Origin: Micromonospora yangpuensis
GTDB lineage: Bacteria; Actinomycetota; Actinomycetes; Mycobacteriales; Micromonosporaceae
Length of the DNA: 64,000 bases
NCBI RefSeq assembly: GCF_900091615.1
Contig: NZ_FMIA01000002.1
Location: 5,580,001-5,644,000 of the forward strand
Direction: 5' to 3'
Both the position numbers and the translations under genes were made by a program. Below, one piece after another: positions 6,545-50,395 of the stretch (the first letter of the stretch is position 1; the number at the start of each line of letters is the position of its first letter). Below the pieces are notes generated by a model that was not told the DNA's origin, searched no databases, and saw only the letters and a program-made list of their open reading frames with translations.

Positions 6545-8980
6545 TCAGAGCTTGTCGATCGGCGCGTGCCGGAGCACCAGCCAGATCTTCTGGTCACCGA
6601 AGTCGATCTGGGCTCGGGCACCCGCGCCGTGCCCCTCGACGGCGAGCACCCGGCCCAGGCCGTACCGCTGGTGGTTCACCCGGTCCCCGGTCGCGACCTT
6701 GGGGCCCTGGGGCAGCTCGCTGGCCGTGGCCAGCCGGCTGCCGTCGACCCCGAGCCGCTTGGCCAGCTGCGCCGCCTTCGGGGTGCCCCCGGCGAAGCCG
6801 CCGGTGCGCTCGCCGAAGCCGCCGGGGCGGTCCGCCCGGCCGCCGACCCCACCGCCGCCACCACCCCAGGCGGTGTACGACCCCTCGGTACGCTCCCAGC
6901 GGACCAGCTCCGGCGGCAGCTCCTCCAGGAACCTCGACGGCGGGTTGTAGGCCGGCTGACCCCAGGCCGACCGGGTCACCGCCCGGGACAGGTAGAGCCG
7001 CTGCCGGGCCCGGGTGATGCCGACGTACGCCAGCCGGCGCTCCTCCTCCAACTCCCGGGTGTCGCCCAGCGAGCGCAGGTGCGGGAAGACGCCGTCCTCC
7101 AGCCCGGTCAGGAAGACCACCGGGAACTCCAGCCCCTTGGCGGTGTGCAGGGTCATCAGGGTGACCACACCCTGGTGGGGGGTGTCGTCGTCGGCCTCGG
7201 TGCCCTCGGGCGGCTTGGGGATCTGGTCGGCGTCGGCGACCAGGGCGACCTGCTCCAGGAAACCGGCCAGGGTGGCCCGCTCGTCCTCGGCGCCGCTGGC
7301 CTCGACCCGCTCGGTGTACTCCCGGGCAACGCTCACCAGCTCCTGGAGGTTGTCCACCCGGCCGGCGTCCTGCGGGTCCAGGCTCTCCTCCAGCTCGGTC
7401 AGATAGCCCGAACGGGTGAGCACCGACTCCAGCACCTCCTCCGGGGTGCCGGTCTCGGCCAACTCCCGGGCGGCGTCGAGCAGGGCGACGAAGTCGGCGA
7501 TGCCGTTGGCGGCCCGGCTGGAGATCCCCGGTGCCTCCCGGGCCCGGCGCAGCGCCGCGCCGAAGGAGATCCGGTCCCGGCCGGACAGCGCCTCCACGCA
7601 CGCCTCGGCCCGGTCACCGATGCCCCGGCGTGGGGTGTTGAGCACCCGGCGCAGACTCACCGTGTCGTCGTCGTTGACCACCGCACGCAGGTACGCCAGC
7701 GCGTCGCGGACCTCCTTGCGCTCGTAGAAGCGCACCCCGCCGACCACCTTGTACGGCAGGCCGACCCGGATGAACACCTCCTCGAAGACCCGCGACTGGG
7801 CGTTGGTGCGGTAGAAGACGGCCACGTCACCGGGGCGGGCGGCGTGCTCGTCGACCAGTCGGTCGACCTCCCGCCCGACCCAGTCCGCCTCGGCGTGTTC
7901 GGTGTCGGCGACGTACCCGACGATCTGCTCGCCGGCCCCGGCGTCGCTCCACAGGCGCTTGGGCTTGCGGGAGGTGTTCCGGTCGATCACCGCGTTGGCC
8001 GCGCTCAGGATGGTCTGGGTGGAGCGGTAGTTCTGCTCCAGCAGGATCGTCCGGGCGTCGGTGAAGTCCCGCTCGAACTCCAGGATGTTGCGGATCGTCG
8101 CACCCCGGAACGCGTAGATCGACTGGTCGGCGTCGCCGACCACGCAGAGCTCGGCCGGCTCGATCCCCTCGGTGCCGGCGACCAGCTCCTTGATCAGGGT
8201 GTACTGGGCGTGGTTGGTGTCCTGGTACTCGTCGACCAGGACGTGCCGGAAACGGCGGCGGTAGCCCTCCGCGACGTGCGGGTGCGACTGGAGCAGGTGC
8301 ACCGTCGTCATGATCAGATCGTCGAAGTCCAGCGCGTGCGCCTCACGCAGTCGCCGCTGGTAGAGCGTGTACGCCTCGGCGAGAGCCCGCTCGTTGGGGC
8401 CCTTGGCCCGCCCGGCGAACTCCTCCGGATCGACCAACTCGTTCTTGAGGTTGGAGACCTGGGCGGCCAGCCCGCGCGCCGGGTAACGCTTCGGGTCGAG
8501 ATCCAACTCGCGGGTGACCAACTGCATCAGCCGCCGGGAGTCGTCGGCGTCGTAGATCGAGAAGGTCGACTTCAGGCCGGCGTGCTGGTGCTCGGCGCGC
8601 AGGATGCGTACGCAGGCGGAGTGGAAGGTGGAGACCCACATCAGCCGGGCGCGCGGACCGACCAGGTCGGTGACCCGTTCCTTCATCTCGCCGGCGGCCT
8701 TGTTGGTGAAGGTGATCGCGATGATCTCGCCGGGATGCACCTGGCGCGCGGCGAGCAGGTACGCGATCCGGTGGGTGAGCACCCGGGTCTTGCCCGACCC
8801 GGCCCCGGCCACGATCAACAGCGGTGAGCCGGCGTGCGTGACCGCGTCACGCTGGGGCCCGTTGAGGCCCTCGACCAGGGCCTGTGGATCAAGCCGGGCG
8901 GGCGGCCCGGACCGGCGCGGCGGCATGGGCTCGGGCGCTGGCGCGGACGGGGACGCGGGAATGTCGAAGAGAGGATGCAT
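6545..8980 (-). CDS. pcrA: UvrD/PcrA-type superfamily 1 DNA helicase
   Basis: An 811-residue 3'-5' helicase. Visible motifs: Q motif region LNGPQRDAV, Walker A GAGSGKT (about residue 60), motif II VDEYQDTNHAQ, motif IV LEQNYRST, and motif VI VGITRARQRLYLS. The C-terminus ends in a compact domain (GDRVNHQRYGLGRVL) typical of PcrA's polymerase-interacting domain. It acts in nucleotide-excision repair, replication restart and clearing of transcription complexes. A -10-like TAGACT lies 9 nt upstream of the ATG on the minus strand, suggesting a very short leader, and its promoter is back to back with that of the chorismate mutase leader. Confidence 0.96.
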   Translation of the reverse strand: MHPLFDIPASPSAPAPEPMPPRRSGPPARLDPQALVEGLNGPQRDAVTHAGSPLLIVAGAGSGKTRVLTHRIAYLLAARQVHPGEIIAITFTNKAAGEMKERVTDLVGPRARLMWVSTFHSACVRILRAEHQHAGLKSTFSIYDADDSRRLMQLVTRELDLDPKRYPARGLAAQVSNLKNELVDPEEFAGRAKGPNERALAEAYTLYQRRLREAHALDFDDLIMTTVHLLQSHPHVAEGYRRRFRHVLVDEYQDTNHAQYTLIKELVAGTEGIEPAELCVVGDADQSIYAFRGATIRNILEFERDFTDARTILLEQNYRSTQTILSAANAVIDRNTSRKPKRLWSDAGAGEQIVGYVADTEHAEADWVGREVDRLVDEHAARPGDVAVFYRTNAQSRVFEEVFIRVGLPYKVVGGVRFYERKEVRDALAYLRAVVNDDDTVSLRRVLNTPRRGIGDRAEACVEALSGRDRISFGAALRRAREAPGISSRAANGIADFVALLDAARELAETGTPEEVLESVLTRSGYLTELEESLDPQDAGRVDNLQELVSVAREYTERVEASGAEDERATLAGFLEQVALVADADQIPKPPEGTEADDDTPHQGVVTLMTLHTAKGLEFPVVFLTGLEDGVFPHLRSLGDTRELEEERRLAYVGITRARQRLYLSRAVTRSAWGQPAYNPPSRFLEELPPELVRWERTEGSYTAWGGGGGGVGGRADRPGGFGERTGGFAGGTPKAAQLAKRLGVDGSRLATASELPQGPKVATGDRVNHQRYGLGRVLAVEGHGAGARAQIDFGDQKIWLVLRHAPIDKL

Positions 8981-9106: not shown

Positions 9107-9135
9107 TTGCGCCGGACCGGCGGCGACGGCATACT
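9107..9135 (+). promoter_or_regulatory. Candidate promoter of the chorismate mutase leader
   Basis: TTGCGC (9107-9112), a 17-nt spacer and CATACT (9130-9135). A start site about 7 nt after the -10 would fall on or next to the GTG at 9143, so the leader ORF would be leaderless; no SD precedes that GTG. Confidence 0.5.
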
Positions 9136-9142
9136 CGACGAC

Positions 9143-9208
9143 GTGTTGGGTCAGCGCTTCTACTTTTACTACGGCACCGGGAGTCCGGCAGCCGTGGGTC
9201 GCGCCTGA
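9143..9208 (+). CDS. Leader peptide with Phe/Tyr control codons
   Basis: A 21-codon ORF plus TGA reading V-L-G-Q-R-F-Y-F-Y-Y-G-T-G-S-P then a short tail. Codons 6-10 are TTC TAC TTT TAC TAC, five aromatic residues in a row in a region where Phe and Tyr are scarce. It ends 15 nt before a perfect terminator and 95 nt before chorismate mutase, the branch-point enzyme of Phe/Tyr synthesis. This is the arrangement of classical amino-acid attenuators such as the enterobacterial pheA leader. The start is inferred; GTG at 9143 coincides with the predicted transcription start, and TTG at 9146 is possible. Confidence 0.65.
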   Translation: MLGQRFYFYYGTGSPAAVGRA

Positions 9209-9258
9209 TCAACCAGACCTACGAAAAGCCCCGGGCTCACAGGAGCCCGGGGCTTTTT
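9181..9258 (+). promoter_or_regulatory. Attenuator: antiterminator/terminator switch before chorismate mutase
   Basis: Three mutually interacting pairings are visible. The terminator is a perfect 15-bp stem (9224-9238 with 9243-9257). The antiterminator pairs 9181-9188 with 9231-9238 (8 bp, one G-U), consuming the terminator's 5' arm. A third 8-bp stem pairs 9193-9200 with 9216-9223 and encloses the leader stop codon. A ribosome stalled on the aromatic codons at 9158-9172 would leave 9181-9188 free to form the antiterminator. The pairings are read from sequence; the mechanism is inference. Confidence 0.6.
9224..9258 (+). terminator. Intrinsic terminator in the chorismate mutase leader
   Basis: A 15-bp perfect stem with an ACAG loop, followed by TTTTT (9254-9258). 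It sits upstream of, not downstream of, a gene on this strand, which points to attenuation. The A run on its 5' side would also let it work on the minus strand, but no gene ends there. Confidence 0.88.
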
Positions 9259-9303
9259 GTTCCGGGATCCGGACACCGGGCCCGACGTCCGAGGGGTACG
9301 ACG

Positions 9304-9666
9304 ATGATGACAGACGTGGTGGAGCAGAACGGCGGCGTGGCACGCGCGGCGGCTGACACGCCGGACGCGGCACCGACGCAGACCGATCCGGCGAGCCCGG
9401 GCACCGGCACCGACGAGCCGGCGGCCGCAGCCCGGATCGTCGAGATCCGGGAACGGATCGACCAGATCGACCGGACCCTGATCGAGCTGTGGCAGGAGCG
9501 GGCCGGCCTGTCGCAGCAGGTCGGCGCGACCCGGATCGCCTCCGGCGGCACCCGGCTGGTGCTCTCCCGCGAGCGGGAGATCCTGGAGCGCTTCCGGCTC
9601 GCCCTCGGCGCCGACGGCACCCAACTCGCCCTGCTCCTGCTCCGCGCCGGCCGCGGCCCCCTGTAA
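9304..9666 (+). CDS. Chorismate mutase (AroQ class)
   Basis: A 120-residue protein with a disordered N-terminal tail of about 45 residues, then an all-alpha chorismate mutase type II domain: IREKIDQID-like helix (IRERIDQIDRTLIELW), the R-x-L-V-x-S-R-E-R-E segment, and the terminal helix. It converts chorismate to prephenate, first committed step to Phe and Tyr. ATG-ATG start with GAGGGG upstream. The TAA stop is supplied by the 54-bp repeat that begins at its last codons. Regulation by the upstream leader is likely. Confidence 0.88.
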   Translation: MMTDVVEQNGGVARAAADTPDAAPTQTDPASPGTGTDEPAAAARIVEIRERIDQIDRTLIELWQERAGLSQQVGATRIASGGTRLVLSREREILERFRLALGADGTQLALLLLRAGRGPL

Positions 9667-9716
9667 GGAAGGGCCCCCTGTTAACGCTTTCGGTATAGAA
9701 GGGCCCCCTTCTAACC
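9663..9716 (+). repeat. 54-bp interspersed repeat, copy A
   Basis: Begins GTAAGGAAGGGCCCC, has a central CGGT, and ends in TAACC. Same length and order of blocks as copies B, C and E. The stop codon of chorismate mutase lies inside it. Confidence 0.9.
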
Positions 9717-30687: not shown

Positions 30688-30741
30688 GGTGAGCGGGGTT
30701 CCCCTCTCGACCGTAGGCGTTAAGCGGGGGCCCTTCCTTAC
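30688..30741 (-). repeat. 54-bp interspersed repeat, copy B
   Basis: Inverted relative to copies A, C and E. On the minus strand it reads GTAAGGAAGGGCCCCCG, then a central CGGTCGAG, ending in CTCACC. Its TAA is the stop codon of the M1 peptidase. Confidence 0.9.
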
Positions 30742-46645: not shown

Positions 46646-46704
46646 GTGCAAGGAAGGGCCCCTTCCTAACCGGATGAGCGTTAAGAAGGGGCCCTTCCTT
46701 GCAC
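46646..46704. repeat. Inverted pair of repeat half-units, copy D; likely groEL terminator
   Basis: A 25-bp stem with one G-U pair (46646-46670 with 46680-46704), 9-nt loop. Each arm contains AAGGAAGGGCCCCTTC, the left block of the 54-bp element. It lies 36 bp past the groEL stop. Confidence 0.88.
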
Positions 46705-46739
46705 CTGCGGCGGGTGTTGGGTGCCGGGGTGCGGGTGGA

Positions 46740-49111: not shown

Positions 49112-50395
49112 GTGGATCTGGAACAGCTCGCCGCGCTGCGTACCCCCGAGGGGTCGGCGGCACTGGCCACGGCCGCGCGACTGGCCGGCGGTGACCCGCT
49201 GCGCGCGGCGGGTGCGCTGCGGGCCACCGGCGTACCCGCCGGGTTGGCCGCCGCCGCGCTGACCCAGGCGGAGCTGCGCCGCCGGGCGGTCGGCAAGTTC
49301 GGCCCGGTCGCCGCCGGGATGTTCTTCACCCGGGCCGGTCTGGAGCAGGCCACCCGGTCGGTAGTCGCCCGACGACGGGCCGAACGGTTACGGGCCGTCG
49401 GGGTGGACACCCTGGCCGATCTGGGGTGCGGCCTCGGTGCCGACGCGCTCGCCGCCGCCCGTGCCGGCATCCGGGTGTACGGCGTGGAGGCCGACCCGCT
49501 CACCGCCGCGCTGGCCGCCGCCAACGCCGAGGCCGCCGGGCTGGCCGACCTGTTCACCGTGACCTGCGGCGACGCCACCGCCTTCGACGTGTCCGGGGTG
49601 GACGCGGTCTTCTGCGACCCGGCCCGTCGGCGGGCCGGCACCGGCCGACGGATCTTCGACCCGAACTCCTACTCGCCGCCCTGGGACTTCGTCACCGGTC
49701 TGGCGCACCGGGTGCCGAACACGGTGGTCAAGGTGGCCCCCGGCCTCGACCACGCGCTGATCCCGGCCGACGCGGAGGCGGAGTGGGTGAGCGTCGACGG
49801 CGACCTGGTCGAGGCCGCCCTCTGGTGTGGCCCGCTGGCCCACCTCCCCCGCCGCGCCACCCTGCTGGGTAAGGAAGGGCCCCCTGTTAACGCATACGGT
49901 CGAGAAGGGCACCCTTCTCACCCCAGCGAGCGCGAGGCCGCGCGGCAGCACGGCGGGGGCGAGGCCGCGCGGCAGACGGTGCACCAGTTGGGCGGTAGCG
50001 GCATGGCGGAGGCGGCGGTCGGGCCGGTACGGCGGTTCCTCTACGACCCGGACCCGGCGGTGGTCCGCGCCCACCTGGTCGCCGAACTCGGCGCCGAACT
50101 GGATGCCACGCTGGCTGACCCGAGCATCGCCTACCTGTACGCCGACACCGCCACGGTGACCCCGTTCGCCCGCTGCCTGGAGGTGACCGACGTGCTGCCG
50201 TTCTCGTTGAAACGGCTGCGTGCGCTGCTGCGGGAGCGACGGGTCGGCCGGGTGGAGATCCTGAAGCGTGGTTCCGCGTTGGAGCCGGAGCAGCTCCGCC
50301 GCGATCTGCGGCTCACCGGGGACCAGCCGGCGAGCCTGGTGTTGACCCGGGTGGCAGGTGCCCCGACCACCCTGTTGTGCCGCCCAGTGACCTGA
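49112..50395 (+). CDS. THUMP-like class I SAM-dependent methyltransferase with repeat insertion
   Basis: 427 residues from GTG 49112. A Rossmann methyltransferase domain with the SAM loop DLGCGLGADAL (about 109-119), acidic E-A-D after strand 2, and the FCDPARR motif (about residue 172); C-terminal THUMP-like domain with FSLKRLRALLRERRVGRVEILKRG. Likely an RNA or small-molecule methyltransferase. The interdomain linker contains an in-frame copy E of the 54-bp repeat, adding 18 codons, followed by a short duplicated E-A-A-R-Q segment. The frame remains open, so the enzyme may be functional. Confidence 0.88.
   Translation: MDLEQLAALRTPEGSAALATAARLAGGDPLRAAGALRATGVPAGLAAAALTQAELRRRAVGKFGPVAAGMFFTRAGLEQATRSVVARRRAERLRAVGVDTLADLGCGLGADALAAARAGIRVYGVEADPLTAALAAANAEAAGLADLFTVTCGDATAFDVSGVDAVFCDPARRRAGTGRRIFDPNSYSPPWDFVTGLAHRVPNTVVKVAPGLDHALIPADAEAEWVSVDGDLVEAALWCGPLAHLPRRATLLGKEGPPVNAYGREGHPSHPSEREAARQHGGGEAARQTVHQLGGSGMAEAAVGPVRRFLYDPDPAVVRAHLVAELGAELDATLADPSIAYLYADTATVTPFARCLEVTDVLPFSLKRLRALLRERRVGRVEILKRGSALEPEQLRRDLRLTGDQPASLVLTRVAGAPTTLLCRPVT
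49869..49922 (+). repeat. 54-bp interspersed repeat, copy E, inside a coding sequence
   Basis: GTAAGGAAGGGCCCCC start, central CGGTCGAGAAGGG, CTCACC end; exactly 54 bp like A, B and C. Read in the host frame it encodes K-E-G-P-P-V-N-A-Y-G-R-E-G-H-P-S-H; the TAA of the element is out of frame. Confidence 0.92.

Follow-up and report, generated by a model that had tools for sequence, protein, structure and literature searches.

The leader preceding the chorismate mutase gene of Micromonospora yangpuensis is most probably a classical ribosome-mediated transcription attenuator, a reading to which we give a probability of about 0.87 on comparative and modelling grounds. Chorismate mutase is the enzyme at the phenylalanine/tyrosine branch point, and the layout of the leader suggests that its gene is switched on when phenylalanine or tyrosine is short. 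A Phe/Tyr-responsive switch of this kind had been proposed in an initial annotation of the region, and both the comparison of relatives and the folding models support it. The attenuation mechanism itself is already known, being that of trp and pheA. The reach of the attenuator across actinomycetes is unexpectedly wide: relatives lie ahead of the mutase in many of these bacteria, so that this form of pathway control may be widespread. If the switch works, charged tRNA would control the Phe/Tyr branch point in many actinomycetes, including antibiotic producers, and the leader would provide a codon-level handle for engineering aromatic precursors.

The features of the region are collected in Table 1, where positions refer to the window, that is, the whole stretch of 64,000 nucleotides that was analysed. 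The gene downstream of the terminator is a chorismate mutase, as annotated, since its product exceeds the cut-offs of NCBIfam NF005894 and TIGR01808 in addition to matching Pfam CM_2. The neighbouring helicase gene is encoded on the opposite strand and, because of this, the terminator does not serve it. By eye, a UvrD/PcrA-type helicase gene seemingly adjoins the mutase in some loci of group f8 as well.

Table 1. Features of the chorismate mutase leader and its surroundings (positions in the window).
Feature	Position	Strand	Basis or remark
UvrD/PcrA-type helicase, divergent from leader	6545-8980	-	upstream neighbour
Promoter-like element TTGCGC (9107-9112), 17-nt spacer, CATACT (9130-9135)	9107-9135	+	sequence
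Leader ORF VLGQRFYFYYGTGSPAAVGRA*	9143-9208	+	21 codons; sequence and homologues
Control codons TTC TAC TTT TAC TAC (Phe-Tyr-Phe-Tyr-Tyr)	9158-9172	+	sequence, positional conservation
1:2 protector hairpin	9169-9197	+	7+4 bp, -17.0 kcal/mol
Antiterminator 5' strand (segment 2)	9181-9188 (GAGTCCGG), partner 9231-9238 (CCGGGCTC)	+	8 pairs, one G-U
Second antiterminator ("stop") stem	9193-9200 with 9216-9223	+	8 pairs, one G-U
Intrinsic terminator	stem 9224-9238/9243-9257, loop 9239-9242, T-run 9254-9258	+	sequence, fold, alignment
Ribosome-binding-like GAGGGG, 7 nt ahead of mutase ATG	9291-9296	+	sequence only
Chorismate mutase (AroQ type), 120 aa, proposed regulated gene	9304-9666	+	Pfam CM_2

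The elements on which the initial annotation had built its case are all in place. The leader ORF runs from a GTG at 9143 to a TGA at 9206-9208 and holds the five consecutive aromatic codons ascribed to it; the perfect 15-bp terminator with its T-tract is located as claimed, with 15 unbroken Watson-Crick pairs and a stability of -30.3 kcal/mol; and both 8-bp stems (the antiterminator, which recruits the terminator's 5' arm, and the stem surrounding the leader stop) are present, each with one G-U among its pairs. The stop stem, which encloses the leader stop codon, is nested within the other. The protector hairpin consists of an outer stem of 7 bp with one G-U (CTACGGC at 9169-9175 with GCCGTGG at 9191-9197) and an inner stem of 4 bp (CCGG at 9177-9180 with CCGG at 9185-9188). 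Its 5' arm contains the last Tyr codon, it overlaps both antiterminator strands of segment 2, and it is mutually exclusive with the antiterminator. The 1:2 protector, the 2:3 antiterminator with its two nested stems and the 3:4 terminator make up the full set of an attenuator.

The stretch of 184 nt at 9120-9303 folds with z = -4.75 and none of 200 shuffles is as stable; the part before the terminator, taken alone, folds unremarkably (z = -0.39, 64 of 200 shuffles). A stock terminator scan did not list the hairpin at 9224-9258, apparently since the T-run is taken up in the A-T pairs of its stem. An Rfam scan of the region gave no match at the gathering score and nothing useful at either threshold; the best amino-acid leader family below threshold was Thr_leader, with 28.7 bits against 55. 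A search of the same genome for a second copy of the attenuator returned only the terminator palindrome and weak matches. A few nucleotides past the terminator lies a CCGGG block (9262-9266), one G of which is invariant across 68 aligned leaders, with the bases flanking it nearly so.

From this layout we infer leader translation, ribosome stalling, termination and the direction of the response. RNA polymerase would start at or beside the GTG, and the ribosome would follow on the presumably leaderless ORF. When Phe-tRNA and Tyr-tRNA are ample, the ribosome would clear the five aromatic codons and depart, upon which the protector hairpin would form and lock segment 2; the terminator could then form, ending transcription ahead of the mutase. 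Under a shortage of Phe- or Tyr-tRNA, the ribosome would wait at the aromatic codons, covering the 5' arm of the protector, and the freed segment 2 (here both 9181-9188 and 9193-9200) would pair with 9231-9238 and 9216-9223. This would remove the 5' arm of the terminator and let the polymerase continue into the chorismate mutase gene.

This switch was modelled by folding the nascent transcript as far as the last base of the terminator 5' arm while keeping the footprint of the ribosome unpaired, the footprint being assumed to reach 18 nt upstream and 12 nt downstream of the first base of the A-site codon. The RNA of the window without a ribosome gives 0.97 for the protector and 0.01 for capture of the terminator arm; when any of the five aromatic codons occupies the A site, modelled capture is 0.82-0.90. 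Across 190 leaders a modelled stall lifts capture from 0.08 to 0.75, against 0.39 to 0.49 in shuffled controls, and the rise exceeds 0.4 in 155 of them. The 35 leaders whose modelled capture does not rise this far comprise 16 of 48 of the Pseudonocardiaceae type, 6 of 75 of the Micromonosporaceae type, 1 of 23 of the Streptomycetaceae type, 5 of 6 from group f31, 4 of 4 of the mycobacterial type and one each from groups f10, f50 and f32; misplaced terminators may contribute to these cases. With the modelled ribosome placed on the stop codon, capture still reaches 0.81, by way of a weaker structure (-16.9 versus -26.0 kcal/mol), so the off state needs either release of the ribosome or a terminator that wins the competition.

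The pairing between segment 2 and its partners was also compared with dinucleotide shuffles. In Micromonosporaceae the region of 9181-9188 is no more complementary to the terminator arm than shuffled sequence (z = -0.01); elsewhere the same pairing gives z = -1.24 in Streptomycetaceae-like leaders and z = -1.53 in group f31. For the stop stem the values are z = -2.63 in Micromonosporaceae and z = -2.00 in f31, with no such effect in Streptomycetaceae-like and Geodermatophilaceae-type leaders. The combined 2:3 pairing reaches z values of -1.75 to -1.93 in the three largest groups, -0.65 in the Geodermatophilaceae type and -0.18 in group f2. Swapping antiterminator strands between families did not discriminate, because GC-rich partners pair almost equally well; in this swap, named loci were assigned to groups by their peptide, and the group names are labels rather than taxonomy.

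The run of aromatic codons is, on its own, weak evidence, because a run of four has 18 matches in the genome (6.5 Mb) and the reversed control pattern has 22. What counts is its conservation ahead of chorismate mutase. In the larger set of 184 or 190 leaders, a Tyr codon before GG is required and aromatic neighbours are preferred, so that Tyr at position -1 in 184 of 184 holds by construction; positions were instead taken from 68 aligned leaders of the Micromonosporaceae, retrieved by a search that did not require aromatic residues. In assembling the larger set, 18 loci that ran into stretch ends or failed the anchor rule were left out, and 14 leaders sharing an identical 130-nt core were merged (204 to 190). 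Among the 68, an aromatic residue is found at position -1 in 68, at -2 in 57, at -3 in 68, at -4 in 64 and at -5 in 33; past the Gly, it is found in two at +1 and in none from +2 to +10.

Codon choice is uneven as well. TTT accounts for 58 of the 60 Phe codons at position -3 in the 68 leaders of the family, and for 55 against 2 TTC in 65 distinct leaders found via the mutase protein, in which position -5 has TTC 19 times versus TTT 3 times. Named loci, whose search pattern has TTT and TAC built in, are excluded from the TTT count. Across 31 genes of the window, the counts are 5 for TTT and 353 for TTC. A rare TTT is thus kept at -3, whether as a slow step or for some RNA-level reason. Codons ending in A or T make up 34% of the 11 leader codons from the Gly onward versus 7.1% in the genes of the window, which points to an RNA-level constraint on the leader. 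Pairing of the leader UUUU with the AAAA of the terminator was considered as a candidate and rejected, UUU persisting where AAAA is absent.

A search with the mutase protein gave a match in 198 of 200 genomes of the Micromonosporaceae, a family that includes the genus Actinoplanes. The 70 loci examined consisted of 30 from the genus Micromonospora, the window's own included, and 40 picked from 32 genera among the better listed matches. All 70 carry an aromatic leader. The leader motif was present in 30 of 30 genus loci, and a peptide search recovered 68 of the 70; in the two that it missed (L066 and L070) a leader was recognized by eye, that of L070 having lost the YG pair. For the genera with weaker matches, inspection covered g11 and g4, through the RNA model, and their leaders are altered (L172, L173). 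The initial annotation had named homologous leaders lacking the aromatic codons or the terminator as the finding that would speak against it; the relatives instead display the codons in every examined locus and terminator pairing in 97.7% of cells across the 68 leaders.

Compensatory changes in the alternative stems, also anticipated by the initial annotation, were found for part of the structure. The terminator has 32 double-change cells, a number reached in 0 of 500 shuffles. For the 1:2 hairpin, 98.8% of cells over the 68 leaders show pairing, and a change from C-G to U-A occurs in 4 cells (1 of 500 shuffles). The expectation did not hold for the antiterminator, which is paired in 93.8% of cells in the same alignment: its double changes are not above chance, because 67 of 500 shuffles reach the 3 cells observed, and two of its pairs have changed on both sides, as happens in 196 of 500 shuffles. 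The case for this candidate stem comes from conserved pairing more than from its covariation, which is thin. Over 184 leaders, with the best-fitting pairing partner counted, the outer stem of the protector is fully paired in 136 versus 4 for a control arm, and two of its pairs alternate between C-G (142) and U-A (29) and between C-G (113) and G-C (60). In four leaders (L073, L074, L077 and L081), TAC has become TAT together with a change of the partner from GTA to ATA, which replaces Val with Ile; the substitution is compensatory and follows the hairpin rather than the peptide. Ten more TAT leaders retain the hairpin pair as U-G. The T-run is absent from some relatives (L067, L075 and L078).

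Given that the -10-like hexamer of the promoter-like element ends 7 nt ahead of the GTG at 9143, transcription and the leader ORF probably begin at the same point; the leader would then be leaderless, the first nucleotide of the mRNA being that of the start codon. In 153 of 184 leaders, versus 2 of 184 for a control window, a hexamer of this type ends 6-8 nt (allowed range 4-9) ahead of the start codon, and a [CT]ATACT box lies just upstream of the leader start in all 30 genus loci. Seven of eight attenuator leaders of Streptomyces lividans are described as leaderless in the available part of PMC8079986. A start of mutase transcription beyond 9258 would be at odds with attenuation, as the initial annotation recognized; judged by sequence only, no -10-like site (TANNNT) occurs in the 60 nt past the terminator in any of the 30 genus loci. 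A stock promoter scan based on the Escherichia coli consensus listed no promoter here. The initial annotation did not include the 1:2 hairpin, the occurrence beyond the Micromonosporaceae or the probable leaderless start.

Other explanations of the leader have to be weighed against attenuation. One is that the leader peptide itself acts, by nascent-chain arrest in response to an aromatic metabolite or in trans, with no role for hungry codons. A trans-acting leader peptide, peTrpL of Sinorhizobium, is reported in the accessible literature, and the C-terminal SPAAVGRA is strongly conserved in Micromonosporaceae; between families, however, the C-terminal half varies (PAPVIA, VSVTAG, AGCHGRAA) while the hairpin is kept, and both the exchange of TAC for TAT with Val to Ile and the U-G pair of the other TAT leaders track the RNA, which makes an acting peptide quite improbable. 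We consider it just as improbable that a constitutive terminator simply follows a small protein gene and that the mutase is expressed through leakage. The great stability of the terminator would suit such an arrangement, as would the fact that the antiterminator strand alone does no better than shuffles in Micromonosporaceae, but a lone terminator would not call for three mutually exclusive stems conserved across 68 leaders, the modelled switch far exceeds that of shuffled controls, and a second promoter-like site ahead of the mutase is missing from all 30 genus loci.

The least probable of the alternatives, in our estimation highly unlikely, is a riboswitch or a protein-binding leader in which the ORF is secondary. 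The primary sequence of segment 2 is indeed conserved unusually strongly, but no Rfam family matches at threshold, the aromatic codons are held at fixed positions, and the Trp codons added ahead of DAHP synthase (see below) would not be explained by an RNA that binds a ligand. Attenuation by a ribosome at the aromatic codons remains the preferred reading, and its distribution was followed beyond the family.

The strongest single result is a scan of named genomes with a pattern of the leader core, because this pattern carries no information on the mutase. It found at least 119 stretches, and a mutase ORF lies within 900 nt downstream in 116 of these 119; in the other three (L240, L278, L303) the sequence ends no more than 146 nt from the match. 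Counting the titled stretches among the matches listed, a mutase ORF follows in 78 of 80. The genera among the matches listed include Micromonospora, Amycolatopsis, Saccharopolyspora, Saccharothrix, Lentzea, Pseudonocardia, Dactylosporangium, Geodermatophilus, Blastococcus, Modestobacter, Rhodococcus, Jatrophihabitans and others. A contig labelled Candidatus Melainabacteria (L214, CAJCJE010000173.1) carries an actinomycete-type leader, RPCYEFFYGNRIPAPVAA, with a mutase; it perhaps comes from a mislabelled or contaminated bin.

An RNA model built from the 68 leaders likewise matched well beyond the Micromonosporaceae; outside the class Actinomycetes, all its matches were weak. Its tallies at E <= 0.001 (237 of 298, 117 of 296 and 37 of 198) overstate the number of members, because many weak matches cover just the terminator part. 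From outside the genus, 40 matches, mostly stronger ones, were fetched: 35 are aromatic leaders and 5 are false (L175, L190-L193). A DAHP synthase follows five of the 35; for 29 of the other 30 a mutase ORF can be read by eye, L171 being the exception. A further 27 loci from the class search, 23 of them in group f33, which we infer to be Streptomycetaceae, have leaders that mostly read TFxFTYGxRPxGCHGRAA; the printed ORF is the mutase in 16 and another longer frame in ten, and L148 precedes a DAHP synthase. Thirty extra genomes, chosen mostly because the RNA model was weak or silent in them, gave a mutase match in 25; of 22 loci inspected from this sample, nine hold a clear aromatic leader, among them four of the mycobacterial type (RFFYGYRxAVPV). 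In six f8 genomes no leader was seen in about 420 nt by the mutase. Two loci of group f31 (L340 and L341) have a different leader-like ORF (MTRRYHVFSQPT... and MFHRYRLFSEPA...) upstream of a weak chorismate mutase match; this ORF may represent another, unrelated kind of aromatic leader.

The codon content of these leaders differs with the gene that follows. Among 184 distinct mutase leaders, 4 contain Trp, whereas it is present in 6 of 6 leaders of group f31 ahead of DAHP synthase and in 3 of 3 ahead of another DAHP synthase. The nine Trp-bearing leaders (L148, L184-L187, L189, L347-L349), which are few and partly related, also contain Phe or Tyr, their motifs being FWFWYG, WSFWYG, FWRFYG, WRFYFEWG and YWRFTEAP; the DAHP synthase was identified with Pfam for L148 (PF18152, PF00793) and L184 (PF18152) and by eye for the rest. 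This difference fits the pathway, because the mutase feeds Phe and Tyr and DAHP synthase feeds all three aromatic amino acids. We lean, with some reserve, towards one ancient attenuator family across Actinomycetes whose codon content would be set by the gene (Phe/Tyr for the mutase, with Trp added for DAHP synthase), with UUU at -3 tuning the response as a slow step. If this is true, the codon content of related leaders appears to track the position of the enzyme in the pathway.

From what the available descriptions convey, the closest known system is aroR of Corynebacterium glutamicum, which lies ahead of aroF, a DAHP synthase gene, and for which Neshat 2014 is said to be the primary paper. 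The accessible parts of two sources cover this attenuator: it figures as a prediction in PMC4046766, and in PMC11802643 its leader is reported to have Phe-Tyr-Phe and to respond to limitation for Phe but not for Tyr. Like the leader of the window, aroR is, on these descriptions, an actinobacterial case of ribosome-mediated attenuation of an aromatic-pathway gene; unlike it, aroR controls the first step and not chorismate mutase, the two having been compared by description only. A 2.7-Mb genome of group f8 has a DAHP synthase leader, MRNWRFYFEWGSGR*, which may, as a guess, be of the aroR kind.

In E. coli, according to the available text of PMC11802643, pheA (with PheL) and pheST have leader peptides with Phe codons and are controlled by charged Phe-tRNA, and the pheA product is a chorismate mutase-prephenate dehydratase. 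No relation in sequence between these leaders and that of the window was detected with Rfam. In contrast to pheA, the leader of the window uses Tyr codons too and is probably leaderless; the last Tyr codon also lies inside the 1:2 hairpin. The Trp, Leu, Ile/Val and other attenuators of Streptomyces and Corynebacterium have, in the accessible parts of PMC8079986 and PMC1262725, mostly leaderless leader peptides and partly GC-rich terminators.

The initial annotation knew of no described attenuator at an actinomycete chorismate mutase, and a search of the open-access literature, as far as its texts were available, found none either. In the available part of PMC1262725 (Seliverstov 2005), a conserved RNA structure was not seen upstream of phenylalanine/tyrosine operons of Actinobacteria, and the table of eight S. 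lividans leaders in the accessible part of PMC8079986 lacks a Phe/Tyr case. Stav et al. 2019 (PMC6429828) report, in the available text, two F/Y uORF candidates tied to shikimate metabolism genes; their survey covers five genomes, of which HIMB5, C. novyi, Arcobacter and T. lienii are non-actinomycetes, and the word chorismate is absent from the main text as available. The element is not described in the accessible main-text parts of PMC13236596, PMC11550727, PMC8914203, PMC4633059 and PMC4128351, nor in those of PMC2965389, PMC3765725, PMC8632094, PMC11109978 and PMC6429828. In their accessible parts, later surveys name no conserved RNA structure at chorismate mutase.

The surroundings of the mutase also contain a dispersed palindromic repeat of the type TAAGGAAGGGCCCCnTnnTTAACGC, found in the window at 9663-9715, near 30727 and 42760, at 46652-46710 and near 49873. 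It is partly arranged in pairs, with two copies directly behind the mutase stop, and a similar pair is found upstream of the leader in L011. It has the appearance of a family of intergenic repeats in these bacteria.
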